Assembly (NCBI GenBank): GCA_017405765.1
Contig: JAFQZS010000022.1
Coordinates: forward strand, 1 to 32,487
Length of the DNA stretch: 32,487 nt
Source of the DNA: Clostridia bacterium
GTDB lineage: Bacteria > Bacillota > Clostridia > Oscillospirales > RGIG577
Direction: 5' to 3'
The notes below the pieces were generated by a model. The model searched no databases. It was given only the letters and a program-made list of their open reading frames with translations, and was not told the origin of the DNA. This document shows, one piece after another, positions 21,783 to 30,124 of this stretch. How positions within the stretch are numbered: position 1 is the first letter of the stretch; each line of letters opens with the position of its first letter. Position numbers and translations under genes: made by a program.

Positions 21783-22868
21783 CTACTTAGTTTTATATTG
21801 CTTTTCACAGTACAGGCAGTAACGTATGTCCGGATGGCTTTTTACGCGCGCGAACATGGGCGGAAGATAATGCTCGTGATTCGTTATGCAGCGAGGGTTG
21901 TCGCAGCGCGCGTCTGTATCTATAAGCGCGGGCAGACGTACGTTTTCTGTCGGAGAGTTGAGCATGTGATATATAAGCGCCATGCGTATATACATGCCGT
22001 AGCGCGCCTGCTTGAAATATACGGCGCGTTCGTCGTCGTCAACGTCGTGAGATATCTCGTCCACCCGCGGAAGCGGGTGCATAACAAGCATGTCCGACTT
22101 GGCAGAGGCAAGCTTTTCGCGGTTCAATATGTAAACGCCTTTTGATTTATTGTATTCATCCTCGCTTGTGAACCTTTCACGCTGTATGCGCGTCATATAA
22201 AGGATATCAAGATGAGGTATGGCGTCTTCCAGGCTTTCCGTCTCCGTGTACTCATAGCCTTTCCTTGCAAGCATTGAGAGCAGGCGGGGAGGGACCTTAA
22301 GATTTGAGGGTGAAATAAAGTAGAACTTGATATTCTTGAAATGAGACATCGCTTTTATAAGCGAATGTACGGTGCGCCCGTTTATAAGGTCGCCGCACAT
22401 GCCTATCGTGAGGTCGTTTGTGCGTCCCTTTTCCATGCGTATGGTAGTAAGGTCTGTCAAAGTCTGAGTGGGGTGAAGATGACCGCCGTCGCCTGCATTT
22501 ATGAGCGCGGTGTTTTCGCATTCCATAGCTGCCGCAAAGGCTGCGCCTTCGAGCGGATGGCGTATCGTTATTATATCGGCGTAGCCCGATATGACCTTTA
22601 TCGTGTCCTTTAATACTTCGCCCTTGGAAACGGAGGAGTTTTTCGGCTCGGAAAAGCCTATGATCTGTCCGCCGAGACGAAGCATGGCCGACTGAAAGGA
22701 AAACATCGTCCTTGTGGAGGGCTCAAAAAAAAGCGTGGCCATTATGCGCCCCTCACAGCTTTTCATGTATTTAGAGGGGTTTTCCATAATGTCGCGCGCC
22801 GTGTCGAAAAGAATATCCCATTCTGCAAGGCTTAAATCATTGAAATCAACAAGATGACGTATGAACAT
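21783..22868 (-). CDS. pyrB: Aspartate carbamoyltransferase fused to a PyrI-type zinc domain
   Basis: The 361-residue protein contains a complete catalytic chain: carbamoyl-phosphate motif FFEPSTRTMFS (47-57), the 80s-loop SVSKGE (79-84), HPTQTLTDL (132-140) and HPLPRVDEI (264-272). About 50 extra residues follow, with C322-x4-C327-x23-C351-x2-C354. This is exactly the cysteine spacing I recall for the zinc domain of the E. coli regulatory chain PyrI (C109, C114, C138, C141), including the CITNHE context. The nucleotide-binding half of PyrI is missing. It catalyses the first committed step of pyrimidine synthesis. The gene is alone, with its own promoter; no PyrR-type leader was seen. Ribosome site CAGGTG is modest. 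Confidence 0.93.
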   Translation of the reverse strand: MFIRHLVDFNDLSLAEWDILFDTARDIMENPSKYMKSCEGRIMATLFFEPSTRTMFSFQSAMLRLGGQIIGFSEPKNSSVSKGEVLKDTIKVISGYADIITIRHPLEGAAFAAAMECENTALINAGDGGHLHPTQTLTDLTTIRMEKGRTNDLTIGMCGDLINGRTVHSLIKAMSHFKNIKFYFISPSNLKVPPRLLSMLARKGYEYTETESLEDAIPHLDILYMTRIQRERFTSEDEYNKSKGVYILNREKLASAKSDMLVMHPLPRVDEISHDVDDDERAVYFKQARYGMYIRMALIYHMLNSPTENVRLPALIDTDARCDNPRCITNHEHYLPPMFARVKSHPDIRYCLYCEKQYKTK

Positions 22869-25293: not shown

Positions 25294-25321
25294 TTGACAT
25301 ACCACAAAAATGTGGTATATT
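25294..25321 (+). promoter_or_regulatory. Promoter of the dehydrogenase array (copy 1)
   Basis: TTGACA (25294-25299), 16-bp spacer, TATATT (25316-25321). A second TTGACA at 25322-25327 is part of an 11-bp direct repeat (TATTTGACATA at 25291-25301 and 25318-25328). A further TATAAAAT (25337-25344) is an alternative -10. Confidence 0.6.
25300..25317. promoter_or_regulatory. Palindromic operator candidate in the spacer
   Basis: TACCACA-AAAA-TGTGGTA is a perfect 7-bp inverted repeat located exactly between the -35 and -10 of the array promoter. A bound dimeric repressor would block polymerase. The regulator is unknown and not encoded next to the array. Confidence 0.55.
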
Positions 25322-25374: not shown

Positions 25375-26205
25375 ATGGGAAACATTACTTGGAATTTTAA
25401 AGGCAAGGTAGTTGTTATCACCGGTTCGGCAACCGGTATAGGCCGCGGGACCGCATTGCAGTTTGCAAAGGCCGGCGCAGACATTGCGCTTTGCGACTTC
25501 AATTTTGATGAAGTATCTAAAACTGCCGAGAAGTGCCAGGCTCTGTCGTCCGGCAAGGTCAAGGCGTACAAGATGAACGTTACGAACGTTGACGAGATCG
25601 CCGCCGCTAAGGAAGCCATCTTAAAGGACTTCGGCACCGTTGACATTCTCTTCTCAAACGCAGGCATAGCGTCCAAGGTAATGGGCCCGCCGCTTGAAAA
25701 CATACCGGATTCCGACTGGGAGTCTACGTTCGCCGTTAATACTCTCGGTATGGTAAAGGTTTGCCGCGCGTTCGCGCCGATATTCAGAGAGAAGAAGGCC
25801 GGCAAGGTAATACTTACGTCCTCGATAGCATCCTGGACCTCGACTCCGCGCACCATGCCTTACAGCGCATCGAAGATCGCTACGGTAAGCTTCGCACAGG
25901 CATTCTCCATCGAGATGGGCGCATACAACGTAAACGTAAATACGATATGCCCCGGCTTCGTATATACCAACATCTATTCCGACGGTACGGCTCTCAAGTA
26001 CAGAGAAGCTATCGGCGGTCCCTTAAAGCAGTTCAACGACAACGAATCCGTAATGAACTACATGGCTTCGGCAGGCAGCTCGCTGCACCGTCCGCAGACG
26101 GTAGACGATATGGCGTACACCGTTATGTTCCTGTCGTCCGATGAGGCAAGCGAGATCACCGGCAGCGTTATCAACGTTGACTCCGGCTTCGTTAAGAGAG
26201 TTTAA
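25375..26205 (+). CDS. Short-chain dehydrogenase/reductase, array copy 1
   Basis: The 276-residue classical SDR has the cofactor loop TGSATGIG (16-23) and an acidic D41 at the end of beta-2 (ALCDFN), which predicts NAD(H) preference. It also has NAG (95-97) and the full catalytic tetrad N122, S150, Y163 (YSASK) and K167. The C-terminal substrate lid (GFVYTNIYSDGTALKYREA) is family-conserved within this array but the substrate is not evident; related SDRs oxidise alcohols on sugars, steroids or acyl chains. Ribosome site AAAGGAG precedes the ATG. It is transcribed from the palindrome-containing promoter at 25294 and is followed by a large-loop terminator. Confidence 0.95.
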   Translation: MGNITWNFKGKVVVITGSATGIGRGTALQFAKAGADIALCDFNFDEVSKTAEKCQALSSGKVKAYKMNVTNVDEIAAAKEAILKDFGTVDILFSNAGIASKVMGPPLENIPDSDWESTFAVNTLGMVKVCRAFAPIFREKKAGKVILTSSIASWTSTPRTMPYSASKIATVSFAQAFSIEMGAYNVNVNTICPGFVYTNIYSDGTALKYREAIGGPLKQFNDNESVMNYMASAGSSLHRPQTVDDMAYTVMFLSSDEASEITGSVINVDSGFVKRV

Positions 26206-26227
26206 TTACATATCGTTTTAAGCATTG

Positions 26228-26276
26228 CGGGCGGAATGCACGATAAGAGAACACGGCCTTCCGCCCGTTTTCTTTT
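26228..26276 (+). terminator. Terminator between array copies 1 and 2
   Basis: CGGGCGGAA (26228-26236) and TTCCGCCCG (26259-26267) with a 22-nt loop, then TTTTCTTTT. Only 36 bp remain before copy 2, with no visible promoter, so readthrough is needed to express it. Confidence 0.8.
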
Positions 26277-26303
26277 ATTTGCTTTACGAAAGGAGAGAAA
26301 AGC

Positions 26304-27134
26304 ATGAGCAACATAACGTGGAATTTTGAAGGAAAGGTAGTCGTAATAACGGGCTCGGCAACGGGCATAGGCCGCGGCACCGCATTGCAGTTCGCAAAGG
26401 CGGGCGCGAGCCTCGCGCTCTGCGACCTTAACTTCGAGGAAGTATCGAGAACGGCCGAAAAGTGTCAGGCGCTCACATCGGGCAAGGTAAAGGCGTACAG
26501 GATGGACGTAACGAACGTTGACGAGATCGCCGCCGCAAAGGAAGCCATCTTAAAGGATTTCGGCACGGTAGACGTTCTCTTCTCCAACGCGGGCGTATCT
26601 CCCAAGGTAATGGGCCCGCCGATCTCGAAGATACCGATCTCCGACTGGGAGAGAACGTATCAGATAAACACGCTTGGCATGGTAAAGGTATGCAACGCCT
26701 TCTGCGAAATATTCAAGGAGAAAAAGGCGGGCAAGATCATCATCACCTCATCGGCGGCCGCATATAAAATCAGCCCGCTCGTAGCTCCCTACGGCGCGTC
26801 GAAGATAGCCGTGCTCAATTTTGCGCAGTCTCTCTCCATGGAGATGGGAGAATACAATACTAACGTAAACGTAATCTGCCCCGGATTCGTTTATACGAAT
26901 ATTTATTCGGACGGCACGGCAATGAAATACAAGGACATTCTTGGCGGAGCGCTCAATCAGCTCAACGACGGCGAATCCGTTATGAATGCCGTGGCGTCCG
27001 CGACAAGCTCGCTGCACAGGCCTCAGACGGTAGACGACATGGCGTATACCGTTATGTTCCTCGCATCGGAGGAGGCAAGCGAGATCACCGGCAGCGCGTT
27101 CAACGTTGACTCTGGCTACATAAAGAAGATTTAA
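26304..27134 (+). CDS. Short-chain dehydrogenase/reductase, array copy 2
   Basis: This 276-residue SDR is nearly the same as copy 1 over the first 35 residues (TGSATGIG loop, D41 in CDLN). It diverges around the active site: the strand reads IITSSAAAYKISPL and the catalytic motif YGASK. Tetrad residues N, S, Y and K are all present. The changes between Ser and Tyr (KISPLVAP against TSTPRTMP in copy 1) line the substrate pocket in classical SDRs, so a different substrate range is plausible. Synonymous codons differ from copy 1 (more CTC, GCG, GTA), arguing that the duplication is not recent. Ribosome site AAAGGAG. No own promoter seen. Confidence 0.94.
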   Translation: MSNITWNFEGKVVVITGSATGIGRGTALQFAKAGASLALCDLNFEEVSRTAEKCQALTSGKVKAYRMDVTNVDEIAAAKEAILKDFGTVDVLFSNAGVSPKVMGPPISKIPISDWERTYQINTLGMVKVCNAFCEIFKEKKAGKIIITSSAAAYKISPLVAPYGASKIAVLNFAQSLSMEMGEYNTNVNVICPGFVYTNIYSDGTAMKYKDILGGALNQLNDGESVMNAVASATSSLHRPQTVDDMAYTVMFLASEEASEITGSAFNVDSGYIKKI

Positions 27135-27144
27135 TCACTTGATT

Positions 27145-27182
27145 AAGATACGGCTACGTTTTTCGCAGCCGTATCTTTTTTA
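27145..27182 (+). terminator. Terminator between array copies 2 and 3
   Basis: AAGATACGGCT (27145-27155) pairs with AGCCGTATCTT (27167-27177), followed by a T run. No promoter is visible in the 30 bp before copy 3. Confidence 0.88.
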
Positions 27183-27212
27183 TATTAAACAAAATAATAA
27201 GGAGGGCGAAAC

Positions 27213-28043
27213 ATGGGCAGTGTGGCTTATAATTACAAGGGCGACGTAGTCGTTATCACGGGCGCGGGCTCGGGCATAGGCAAGGGAACGGCGCTTGAGT
27301 TCGCAAAGGCGGGCGCAAGCATTGCGATCTGCGACGTAAATCTTGAAGCGGCCGAAAAAACGGCGGAGGAGTGCCGTGCGCTGACGTCGGGAAAGGTCAT
27401 CGCGGTAAAAATGGACGTTACCAACGACGAAGAGATAAGCGCGGCAAAGGATGCGATACTTAAAGAGATGGGCACCGTTGATATTCTCTTTTCGAACGCG
27501 GGCGTCTCGTCAAAGGTCATGGGGCCTCCGCTTGAAAGCATTCCGAACAGCGACTGGGAGCTCGTGCTTCAGGTAAACACACTCGGCATGGTCAAGGTGT
27601 GCCGCACGTTCGCTCCGATCTTTAAGGAAAAGAGAGCCGGCAAAATAGTTATGACGTCATCCATCGCGGCATACACTTCCACGCCGCGCTCAATGCAATA
27701 CAGCGTTTCAAAGCTTGCGACGATCGGCTTCGCGCACGCCTTCTCAATCGAAATGGGCGAGTATAACGTAAACGTGAACACGATCTGCCCGGGATTCGTT
27801 TATACGAACATCTACGCGGACGGCACGGGCATGAAATTCAGAAACGCAATAGGCGGGCCGCTCTTAAAATTCACCGACAACGAGTCCGTAATGAACGCGA
27901 TGGCTGCCGCGGGCAGCTCCCTCAGGCGCGCTCAGAAGGTGGAGGATATGGCGTACGCCGTCTTGTTCCTCTGCTCCGATCAGGCGAAAGAGATAACGGG
28001 ACAGGTATTGAACGTTGATTCCGGTTACGTGAACAGGATCTAA
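27213..28043 (+). CDS. Short-chain dehydrogenase/reductase, array copy 3
   Basis: This 276-residue SDR has cofactor loop TGAGSGIG (16-23), D41 in CDVN predicting NAD(H), SNAG, a VN active-site Asn, and the catalytic motif YSVSK with Ser in TSSIAAYTSTPRS. In the pocket-lining stretch it is closer to copy 1 (STPRSM) than to copy 2, while its N-terminus (AYNYKGDVVVITG) is closer to copy 4. It therefore looks intermediate, or mosaic between the two subgroups. Ribosome site AAGGAGGG. It probably depends on readthrough from copy 1's promoter. Confidence 0.94.
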   Translation: MGSVAYNYKGDVVVITGAGSGIGKGTALEFAKAGASIAICDVNLEAAEKTAEECRALTSGKVIAVKMDVTNDEEISAAKDAILKEMGTVDILFSNAGVSSKVMGPPLESIPNSDWELVLQVNTLGMVKVCRTFAPIFKEKRAGKIVMTSSIAAYTSTPRSMQYSVSKLATIGFAHAFSIEMGEYNVNVNTICPGFVYTNIYADGTGMKFRNAIGGPLLKFTDNESVMNAMAAAGSSLRRAQKVEDMAYAVLFLCSDQAKEITGQVLNVDSGYVNRI

Positions 28044-28067
28044 TATTGCAGCAGAGTTATCTCGGTG

Positions 28068-28105
28068 AAATACGGCTCCGCAAAAGCGGGGCCGTATTTT
28101 TTTAT
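28068..28105 (+). terminator. Terminator between array copies 3 and 4
   Basis: AAATACGGCTCCGC (28068-28081), AAAA loop, complement 28086-28099 (one wobble), then a long T run. Confidence 0.93.
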
Positions 28106-28115
28106 GCAAAATTGT
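28068..28115 (+). repeat. 48-nt duplicated terminator module, copy A
   Basis: This stretch differs at only three positions from 29077-29124. The repeat includes the whole hairpin, the T tract and a following TGCAAAAYTGT, so the duplication of the SDR gene carried its terminator. Confidence 0.9.
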
Positions 28116-28135
28116 TTCAAATTAACATTATTCAT

Positions 28136-28164
28136 TTGACAAATATAATGAAAAAACATATTAT
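28136..28164 (+). promoter_or_regulatory. Promoter of array copy 4
   Basis: TTGACA (28136-28141), 17-bp spacer, TATTAT (28159-28164). Confidence 0.82.
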
Positions 28165-28175
28165 TAAATCAAGAA

Positions 28176-28192
28176 TTAGTTAATATTTAACT
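28176..28192 (+). promoter_or_regulatory. Shared element TTAGTT-N5-TTAACT (copy 4)
   Basis: TTAGTT-AATAT-TTAACT, containing the inverted repeat AGTTAA-TAT-TTAACT, lies 12 bp after the -10, over the predicted start of transcription. A matching element lies at the same place in front of copy 5. Candidate operator. Confidence 0.5.
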
Positions 28193-28235
28193 ATATACGG
28201 GTAAAATTACAAAATAATTTTAAGGAGGACAAAAC

Positions 28236-29057
28236 ATGGGAAGCATTGCTTATAACTTTAAGGGCGACGTAGTTGTGATCACGGGCGCGGCTTCGGGCAT
28301 AGGAAAGGGAACGGCGCTCCAGTTTGCTAAGGCGGGCGCAGATTTGGCGCTTTGTGACTTCAACGCCGATGGCGGCGAAGCTGTCGCAAAGGAATGCCGC
28401 GATTTGGGCGTTAAGGCAAAGTTTTATCAGATGGACACGACAAATACCGAGAGAGTAAACGCCGTTCGCGACGAGGTCTTAAAGGACTTCGGCAAGGTTA
28501 CGTGCCTATTTGCCAACGCGGGCGTATCTCAGGACGTTATGGGCCCGCCTCTTGAGAGCGTGCCCGACGAAACGTGGGAAAAGACGATAGCCGTAAATAC
28601 TATGGGCTGCATCAAGGTTTGCCGCGCGTTCGCTATCCCCATGAAGGAAGCAAACTACGGCAAAATAGTTATGACCTCGTCCATAGCCGTTTATTCGTTA
28701 AGCCCGATAATGGCGGCTTACAATGTATCGAAGATGGGCGTTCTTGCTTTCATGGGAACGCTTTGCTCCGAGCTCGGCAACTACAACATAAACGTAAACG
28801 CAGTATGCCCCGGCTTCGTATACACCCCGATGTACTCCGAGGGCGGCGCGCTTCGCATCCGCGATAAGTCGAAGGTGCTGGGAAAGATTCAGGACCCGAA
28901 GACGGTAGTAGAGACCATGGCTTCGACGTCGGCGCTCCACCGAATGCAGACGGTAGACGACCTTGCGAACGGCGTTATGTTCCTTTGTGCAGAGAACTCG
29001 AAGGAGATAACGGGACAGGTGCTCAACGTAGACTCCGGCGCGGCACGCAGAATTTAA
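28236..29057 (+). CDS. Short-chain dehydrogenase/reductase, array copy 4
   Basis: This 273-residue SDR has loop TGAASGIG (16-23), D41 in CDFN, ANAG in place of SNAG, a VN active-site Asn, Ser in TSSIAVYSLSPIM and the motif YNVSK. It shares with copy 5 the shorter GVKAKFY segment, the FGKVTCL strand, LCSELGNYNINVNA and an SGGA/EGGA lid (VYTPMYSEGGALRIRDK). It therefore defines a second subgroup with a different lid from copies 1-3. Ribosome site AAGGAGGA. It has its own promoter (28136) and candidate operator (28176), so it can be expressed separately from copies 1-3. Confidence 0.94.
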   Translation: MGSIAYNFKGDVVVITGAASGIGKGTALQFAKAGADLALCDFNADGGEAVAKECRDLGVKAKFYQMDTTNTERVNAVRDEVLKDFGKVTCLFANAGVSQDVMGPPLESVPDETWEKTIAVNTMGCIKVCRAFAIPMKEANYGKIVMTSSIAVYSLSPIMAAYNVSKMGVLAFMGTLCSELGNYNINVNAVCPGFVYTPMYSEGGALRIRDKSKVLGKIQDPKTVVETMASTSALHRMQTVDDLANGVMFLCAENSKEITGQVLNVDSGAARRI

Positions 29058-29076
29058 AGAAACAACCTTATTTAAA

Positions 29077-29112
29077 AAATACGGCTCCGCAAAAGCGGGG
29101 CCGTGTTTTTTA
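29077..29112 (+). terminator. Terminator between array copies 4 and 5
   Basis: Same hairpin as after copy 3 (AAATACGGCTCCGC, AAAA loop, complement at 29095-29108) with a T run. Confidence 0.92.
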
Positions 29113-29124
29113 ATGCAAAACTGT
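29077..29124 (+). repeat. 48-nt duplicated terminator module, copy B
   Basis: Three substitutions relative to 28068-28115. Its last 11 nt (TGCAAAACTGT, 29114-29124) recur as an exact inverse complement at 30057-30067, right after copy 5. Confidence 0.9.
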
Positions 29125-29143
29125 ATATTTTCCCATATATGGT

Positions 29144-29172
29144 TTGACAAAATGCATAAATAGTTATATTAT
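29144..29172 (+). promoter_or_regulatory. Promoter of array copy 5
   Basis: TTGACA (29144-29149), 17-bp spacer, TATTAT (29167-29172): the same hexamers and spacing as copy 4. Confidence 0.83.
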
Positions 29173-29185
29173 ATTTGTTAGAAGT

Positions 29186-29203
29186 TTAGTTCAAAGCTTA
29201 ACT
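29186..29203 (+). promoter_or_regulatory. Shared element TTAGTT-N6-TTAACT (copy 5)
   Basis: TTAGTT-CAAAGC-TTAACT begins 14 bp after the -10, matching the element of copy 4 in arms, order and position with one extra spacer base. Candidate operator for co-regulation. Confidence 0.5.
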
Positions 29204-29233
29204 GAATTATAAATTTTAAGGAGGCAGATTATC

Positions 29234-30052
29234 ATGGGTGTTACTAAGTATGATTTCAAAGGCGACGTAGCCGTTGTTACCGGTGCAGCTTCCGGTATAG
29301 GCCGTTGCGTAGCTCTTTCTTTTGCTGAGGCAGGAGCAGACGTAGCAGTTTGCGACTTCAGCGAAAAGGGCGAAGAGACTGCAGCGCTTTGCCGCGAGAA
29401 GGGCGTTAAGGCAAAGTTCTACAAGATGGACGTTACCAACAACGAGAACGTTATCGCTGTTCGTGACGAAGTAGTTAAGGATTTCGGCAAAGTTACTTGC
29501 TTACATTCCAACGCAGGTATTTCTCAGACCGTTATGGGTCCTCCGCTTGATGCTATCCCGGACGACGTTTGGGAGAAGGTATTCGCAGTAAACCTTTTCG
29601 GTACCGTTAAGGTTTGCCGTGCATTTGCTGAGCCGATGAAGGCAGCTAACTTCGGTAAGATCGTTATTACGGCTTCCGTTGCTGCATTCCAGCAGAGCCC
29701 GCTTATGCCTGTTTACAACTGCTCCAAGATCGCAGCTCTCAGCTTCATGTCCACTCTCTGCAAGGAGCTTGGCAACTACAACATCAACGTAAACGCTATC
29801 AACCCCGGTTACGTTAATACTCCTATATACTCCGGCGGCGGCGCTATGCTCGTTAAGGAGAAGGTTCCGGCTCTCCAGAAGCTCGAAACCTCTGAGCAGG
29901 TAGTTAAGGCTATCGCATCCGGCAGCGCGCTCCATCGTCCGCAGACCGTTGAAGATATGGCTAACGGCGTTCTCTTCCTTTGCTCCGACACTTCGAAGGA
30001 AATCAGCGGCGTTTACCTCAACATCGACTCCGGCGCGATCTGCAGAATCTAA
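29234..30052 (+). CDS. Short-chain dehydrogenase/reductase, array copy 5 (probably highly expressed)
   Basis: This 272-residue SDR has loop TGAASGIG (16-23), D41 in CDFS (NAD(H) predicted), N93 of SNAG, and tetrad N120, S148 (TASVAAF), Y161 (YNCSK) and K165. The first Ser of the usual TSS is Ala, which leaves the catalytic Ser intact. Codon choice is unlike copies 2 and 3: Ala GCT/GCA, Thr ACC/ACT, Val GTT/GTA, Gly GGT/GGC and Phe TTC dominate, the pattern also seen in the ABC binding lipoprotein. That points to strong expression. Ribosome site AAGGAGG. It has its own consensus promoter and an 18-bp terminator stem. Confidence 0.95.
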   Translation: MGVTKYDFKGDVAVVTGAASGIGRCVALSFAEAGADVAVCDFSEKGEETAALCREKGVKAKFYKMDVTNNENVIAVRDEVVKDFGKVTCLHSNAGISQTVMGPPLDAIPDDVWEKVFAVNLFGTVKVCRAFAEPMKAANFGKIVITASVAAFQQSPLMPVYNCSKIAALSFMSTLCKELGNYNINVNAINPGYVNTPIYSGGGAMLVKEKVPALQKLETSEQVVKAIASGSALHRPQTVEDMANGVLFLCSDTSKEISGVYLNIDSGAICRI

Positions 30053-30073: not shown

Positions 30074-30124
30074 AAAGAGAGGCCGCAGCATATAAAAAAT
30101 GCTGCGGCCTCTCTTTGTTTGTTT
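30074..30124 (+). terminator. Terminator at the end of the array
   Basis: An 18-bp perfect stem AAAGAGAGGCCGCAGCAT (30074-30091) with 30099-30116 and a 7-nt loop, then GTTTGTTTT. Confidence 0.93.

Follow-up and report, generated by a model that had tools for sequence, protein, structure and literature searches.

Five tandem NAD-type short-chain dehydrogenase genes with predicted separate control form part of a genus-specific subfamily in a gut Clostridia lineage

Classical short-chain dehydrogenases (SDRs; PF00106/PF13561) and their duplications are already well known. The five-gene locus analyzed here, which we call array A, has in common with them the Rossmann fold, the TGxxxGIG, NAG and Asn-Ser-Tyr-Lys motifs and a length of about 275 aa, but it falls in a genus-specific subclade with [ML]GPP after the NAG strand, and it reaches no curated subfamily cut-off. 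Among described enzymes, xylitol dehydrogenase 1zem and the sugar-alcohol SDRs are of the NAD type and provide the best structural match for A1 and the best PDB sequence match for A5, although 1zem and A1 are only 26% identical across the structural alignment. Acetoin(diacetyl) reductase/BudC (4weo, 1geg), likewise NAD-type classical SDRs, supply the second-ranked fold match to A1. As in acetoin/2,3-butanediol systems, AcoAB/PDH-type E1 subunits precede array B, a related array of the same genome; unlike in those systems, the genus lacks acetolactate decarboxylase. The 7-alpha-hydroxysteroid dehydrogenases (7-alpha-HSDHs; 1fmc, 7eny) share the overall architecture and, judged by sequence, belong to the nearest solved structures, but array A scores far below their family cut-off and has no bai genes nearby. 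Array B itself (contigs C9/C27) shows the same clade membership, [ML]GPP motif and tandem layout as array A; it differs in its identity to A (42-51%), in an insertion after NAGV, in its position downstream of an E1alpha-E1beta pair and in its presence in all three species of the genus. Searches of the open-licence literature for tandem SDR arrays of the array A kind, and for RGIG577, returned nothing relevant. As far as that literature was searched, the genus-specific [ML]GPP subfamily and the separately controlled five-gene array are new, while the fold of array A is ordinary and its chemistry probably so.

The window analyzed is one whole contig (C22) of 32,487 bp, from a genome (G000) of 2.17 Mb in 54 contigs that is 99% complete and 2.5% contaminated. 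Its genus, the sole genus of its family within the sample, comprises three sampled species: our own, a second (G002), which is the sister MAG 'Clostridia bacterium RGIG577' from dairy-cattle duodenum, and a third (G001). A first-pass annotation, made from the letters of the window, had described five full-length tandem SDR genes at 25375-30052, and we found them at exactly these positions with intact reading frames. They lie head to tail, encode proteins of 272-276 aa and contain no internal stops:

25375..26205, + strand: SDR A1, 276 aa; codon adaptation index (CAI) in the 91st percentile of sampled genes
26304..27134, + strand: SDR A2, 276 aa; no consensus promoter of its own found
27213..28043, + strand: SDR A3, 276 aa; no consensus promoter of its own found; codon adaptation lowest in the array
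28236..29057, + strand: SDR A4, 273 aa
29234..30052, + strand: SDR A5, 272 aa; codon adaptation highest in the array (96th percentile)

All five match Pfam adh_short/adh_short_C2 (PF00106/PF13561) with 170-183 bits against a gathering cut-off of 27, which identifies them as classical SDRs. In A1 numbering, TGxxxGIG (16-23), Asn122, Ser150, Tyr163 and Lys167 are invariant in 19/19 aligned family members, and so is Asp41 ('CD'), the NAD-subtype residue that ends beta-2. The intact tetrad and beta-2 Asp reported for every copy are thus borne out by the alignment: A1-A5 are classical SDRs with an intact Asn-Ser-Tyr-Lys tetrad, and their preference for NAD is predicted from Asp41. Between the catalytic Ser and Tyr the copies read IASWTSTPRTMP (A1), AAAYKISPLVAP (A2), IAAYTSTPRSMQ (A3), IAVYSLSPIMAA (A4) and VAAFQQSPLMPV (A5). 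The lid is of two types, 'TNIYxDG' with one extra residue in A1-A3 and 'TPxYxxG', shorter by one residue, in A4-A5. Both the loop differences and the two lids, also noted in the first-pass annotation, are evident in the alignment. Species-conserved positions with at least three residues among the five paralogs amount to 15/43 in loop plus lid versus 35/233 elsewhere (one-sided Fisher p=0.003), the segment limits having been set by the analyst from the annotation's description. This enrichment supports a specialization of the pocket; it does not name the substrates.

In a maximum-likelihood tree of the paralogues, their orthologues and outside SDR matches, arrays A and B formed one clade (support 100/100), within which A1-A3 and A4-A5 were separate clades with 100% support. 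Protein identity is 63-76% among A1-A3, 63% between A4 and A5 and 49-55% across the groups. The proposed tandem paralogous array with subgroups 1-3 and 4-5 was therefore recovered, and since the copies belong to one recent family, an origin as five unrelated SDRs was rejected. Array A as a whole sits on a weakly supported branch (67/40); B0 may branch within it or next to it. Because each A gene pairs with its namesake from the second species (the A1 pair at 80/64), the duplications predate the split of the two species. In the second species all five genes recur in unchanged order, with orthologue identities of 96, 93, 86, 97 and 96% for A1 to A5, and purifying selection is strong on every copy (dN/dS 0.03-0.06 by NG86 for all five; YN00 similarly low for A1-A4). 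An assembly artefact, the other doubt attached to the first-pass annotation, was rejected because a separate MAG of another species has this gene order. Two contigs of the second species, C59 and C10, overlap across A3-A4 yet conflict in sequence (A3 tail 82% identical in DNA, intergenic region unrelated, A4 96%), as would result from a mixture of strains or from a longer array.

The neighbours of array A in the window are pyrBI-like, FMN reductase and YunG-like genes, which are unrelated, and nothing in the window names a substrate. In the second species, the same pyrBI-like and FMN-reductase genes precede the array and ligA follows it. The pyrBI-like gene (window positions 21783-22868) encodes an aspartate carbamoyltransferase fused to a C-terminal PyrI-like metal-binding domain; this gene and array A are both missing from the third species. 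We searched 394 genomes of the order, 391 of the class and 398 of the phylum, about 1,160 in the phylum altogether. Relatives of the A/B type outside the genus were found neither at E<=1e-45 in the order genomes nor at E<=1e-38 in the class genomes; the best match outside the genus among the phylum genomes was 38% identical, and tblastn against plasmids gave matches of only 31-37% identity. Among the sampled phylum genomes, the A + B clade, marked by a conserved [ML]GPP that follows the NAG strand, is thus confined to the host genus. Horizontal spread or membership in a wide family was rejected, since only distant SDRs, 31-40% identical, occurred outside the genus at the thresholds used.

Separate termination of the genes and partly separate promoters had not been noted in the first-pass annotation. 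The elements predicted in and around the array are as follows:

25294..25321, + strand: promoter P1, TTGACA-16-TATATT, before A1; overlaps an operator-like palindrome
26225..26278, + strand: terminator-like hairpin A1/A2, z -4.1; counterpart in the second species z -2.5
27145..27182, + strand: terminator hairpin A2/A3, z -6.2; in the second species z -8.0, of the same kind but with a different stem sequence
28067..28104, + strand: terminator hairpin A3/A4, z -5.3; in the second species on contig C10, absent from C59
28136..28164, + strand: promoter P4, TTGACA-17-TATTAT, before A4
28177..28193, unstranded: operator-like palindrome TAGTTAA-TAT-TTAACTA (TAGTTAANNNTTAACTA), downstream of P4 and before A4
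29072..29113, + strand: terminator hairpin A4/A5, z -6.4
29144..29172, + strand: promoter P5, TTGACA-17-TATTAT, before A5
30074..30116, + strand: 18-bp intrinsic terminator ending the array, z -7.6; hairpin readable in both directions

The hairpin after every gene in the window folds more stably than almost all of its shuffled versions (z -4.1 to -7.6), and in the second species hairpins with altered stems occupy matching places, apart from the one missing between A3 and A4 on C59. In both species, A1, A4 and A5 each have a near-consensus sigma-70 promoter upstream. As the scan of the region returned 14 promoter-like sites versus 7.3 expected, this conservation weighs more than the scan itself. 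The spacer of P1 contains the operator-like palindrome ATACCACA-AAAA-TGTGGTAT, and the -35/-10 elements and the CCACAAAAATGTG core are kept in the second species. With up to one mismatch, TAGTTAANNNTTAACTA occurs only before A4 in our genome, only at the two A4 copies in the second species and nowhere in the third. The scan showed no consensus promoter upstream of A2 or A3, so these genes are probably transcribed by read-through from P1. No repressor gene adjoins the array. The earlier description of an enzyme-only cassette is correct in that no transporter or regulator is embedded; as a single operon the cassette does not stand, since the predicted terminators and separate promoters indicate that array A is not a simple operon.

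Codon usage was compared with ribosomal, EF and GroEL genes as the CAI reference, against a background of 220 sampled genes of the genome. A5 (96th percentile, about the level of GroEL/EF-Tu) and A1 (91st) are predicted to be highly expressed; A3 lies at the 65th percentile. Separate promoters and terminators, different operators and differing codon adaptation would all fit a subfunctionalization by dosage or regulation, in which the five enzymes share one reaction and differ mainly in the timing and strength of expression. We nevertheless regard this as unlikely, because the paralogue-specific, species-conserved residues cluster in loop and lid and identity across the 1-3 and 4-5 groups is 49-55%.

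For none of the NCBIfam models listed for A1-A5 was a curated cut-off reached. BudC meso-2,3-butanediol dehydrogenase (NF052558) gave 137-154 bits (A1 149) versus a cut-off of 270; 3-hydroxybutyrate dehydrogenase (NF009093/TIGR01963) at most 179 versus 258/307; FabG (NF009466 and relatives) 187 for A3 versus 222; and the mycofactocin-coupled SDR model (TIGR03971) at most 175 versus 300. The 7-alpha-HSDH model (NF004773) gave 146.5 bits for A3 versus 367 and was outside the 25 best families for the other copies. At 37.5 kb of contig C3, the fatty-acid synthesis genes include a separate SDR of fabG-like type. A mycofactocin system was rejected, as no MftC maturase scores above the cut-off in the genome. 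The predicted structure of A1 has the standard SDR fold (pLDDT 86, pTM 0.86), and its top Foldseek match was NAD+-bound xylitol dehydrogenase, followed by a putative acetoin reductase, with very many SDRs nearly equal. Structures of 7-alpha-HSDH, xylitol dehydrogenase, acetoin reductase, 3-hydroxybutyrate dehydrogenase and FabG match about equally well, and fold or sequence matches at 26-38% identity do not discriminate substrates. The steroid, sugar or polyol specificity suggested in the first-pass annotation thus finds no backing in curated subfamily cut-offs, nor in matches that several SDR types share about equally.

The five enzymes might instead be bile-acid/hydroxysteroid dehydrogenases that oxidize and epimerize bile-acid hydroxyls at various positions and share a pathway with BaiCD-like flavoenzymes. 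Such a role would suit the 7-alpha-HSDHs among the nearest solved structures and the cattle duodenum from which the sister MAG derives, where bile acids are present. The genome also encodes eight Oxidored_FMN (OYE family) proteins, 6/8 of them about 650-940 aa long, and the best models for two long ones that were tested include BaiCD, mycofactocin OYE and bilirubin reductase, all below cut-off. However, the BaiCD models score only about 427 bits against 825 and tie with the other two, A3 obtains only 146 of 367 bits from the 7-alpha-HSDH model, no bai-like gene lies near array A, and the [ML]GPP motif is conserved in a family limited to one genus. We consider this role distinctly improbable.

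A function as 3-hydroxyacyl(-CoA)/3-hydroxybutyrate-type dehydrogenases in the fermentation of amino acids or organic acids to butyrate also seems unlikely to us. In favour of it, the NCBIfam model that scores highest for A4 is 3-hydroxybutyrate dehydrogenase (179 bits), the top structures include 4trr and 2et6, and the genome contains highly codon-adapted acyl-CoA dehydrogenase-type and EtfAB-type genes, as well as proteins that resemble 4-hydroxybutyryl-CoA dehydratase in sequence. Yet cut-offs of 215-340 are unreached, a single substrate needs no five copies with divergent pockets, and beta-oxidation genes do not adjoin the array.

Further SDR arrays in the genome were invisible to the first-pass annotation, which covered the window. 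With 25 PF13561 matches in the genome, array A is one of several dehydrogenase arrays, the others being array B on C9, the four-gene array C on C13 and D on C5, a pair of nearly identical genes. Array B begins on C27 behind a TPP-dependent E1alpha-E1beta pair without E2 (C27:65.2-67.4 kb), and the same arrangement is found in the third (contig C15) and second (contig C324) species, the join being inferred across a contig break inside B0 in each genome. The THRGHG motif of the E2-associated copy (C47) is missing from the E1alpha linked to array B and from that of another pair without E2, which suggests a carboligase- or lyase-type reaction for the E2-less pairs rather than a dehydrogenase complex. 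The position of array B downstream of such a pair points to hydroxyketone/diketone chemistry. Ordinary acetoin production is not the source, because acetolactate decarboxylase (AlsD) is absent from all three genomes, and the acetolactate-derived route was accordingly rejected. Three tandem zinc-type MDR dehydrogenases lie at C3:96.6-100.0 kb, with another SDR following them and a GldA-like gene near; the first MDR gene is closest to scyllo-inosose 3-dehydrogenase, below cut-off (150 of 450 bits). The genome has GldA-like genes in the plural.

Our preferred explanation, held tentatively and with somewhat less than even confidence, is that array A encodes NAD-linked dehydrogenases of small secondary alcohols and hydroxyketones (polyol- or acyloin-like), with substrates and regulation divided among the copies. 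Counted in its favour were the intact catalytic and cofactor motifs, the xylitol dehydrogenase fold match, the pocket enrichment, the one-to-one orthologues in the second species, dN/dS, the conserved promoters and terminators, the CAI of A1 and A5, the link of array B to the E1 pair, and the groups of MDR and GldA-like polyol-type dehydrogenases. Counted against it were that the E1 link belongs to array B, which is only 42-51% identical to A, the unrelated neighbours of array A, the absence of AlsD and the non-discriminating SDR matches.

Under this polyol/acyloin reading, a genus-restricted NAD-type SDR would have been duplicated stepwise in tandem before the two species split, the ancestor giving rise to a 1-3 branch and a 4-5 branch, with full catalysis predicted to be kept in each copy while the substrate-facing loop (Ser150-Tyr163) and the lid drifted apart. 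Expression would be subdivided, A1 (and perhaps A2 and A3 by read-through) being transcribed from P1 with its operator-like palindrome, and A4 and A5 from their own promoters. The enzymes may catalyze the reversible NAD+/NADH-linked oxidation or reduction of related small secondary alcohols and ketones of the polyol, diol or hydroxyketone type, different copies serving different stereoisomers or congeners within a fermentative redox pathway. Substrate class and reaction direction of A1-A5 are what we infer from the evidence above. A bolder proposal, which we think quite unlikely, is that arrays A and B form an undescribed SDR subfamily that, together with the E2-less TPP enzyme, carries out acyloin/polyol catabolism by a new anaerobic pathway in this ruminant-gut genus, the five paralogues being under separate regulation and stereo- or congener-specific.

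With five recent copies, orthologues in two species, purifying selection and a fixed catalytic frame around a varying loop and lid, array A is a natural series and a good test bed for the evolution of SDR substrate range. It also hints that this uncultured lineage of the ruminant gut has a fermentative pathway yet to be characterised.

Two other regions of the genome with SDR genes were also noted. At C5:10.1-15.3 kb we observed duplicated pairs of an HpaB-type (4-hydroxybutyryl-CoA dehydratase-like) gene and an SDR gene; the two SDRs are 98% identical, and the genes of these pairs have the top codon adaptation among all sampled genes. Array C on C13 has a TetR-type regulator on one side and, on the other, a radical SAM/SPASM gene whose product stays below curated cut-offs, and this SDR/radical SAM neighbourhood is kept in both the second and the third species.
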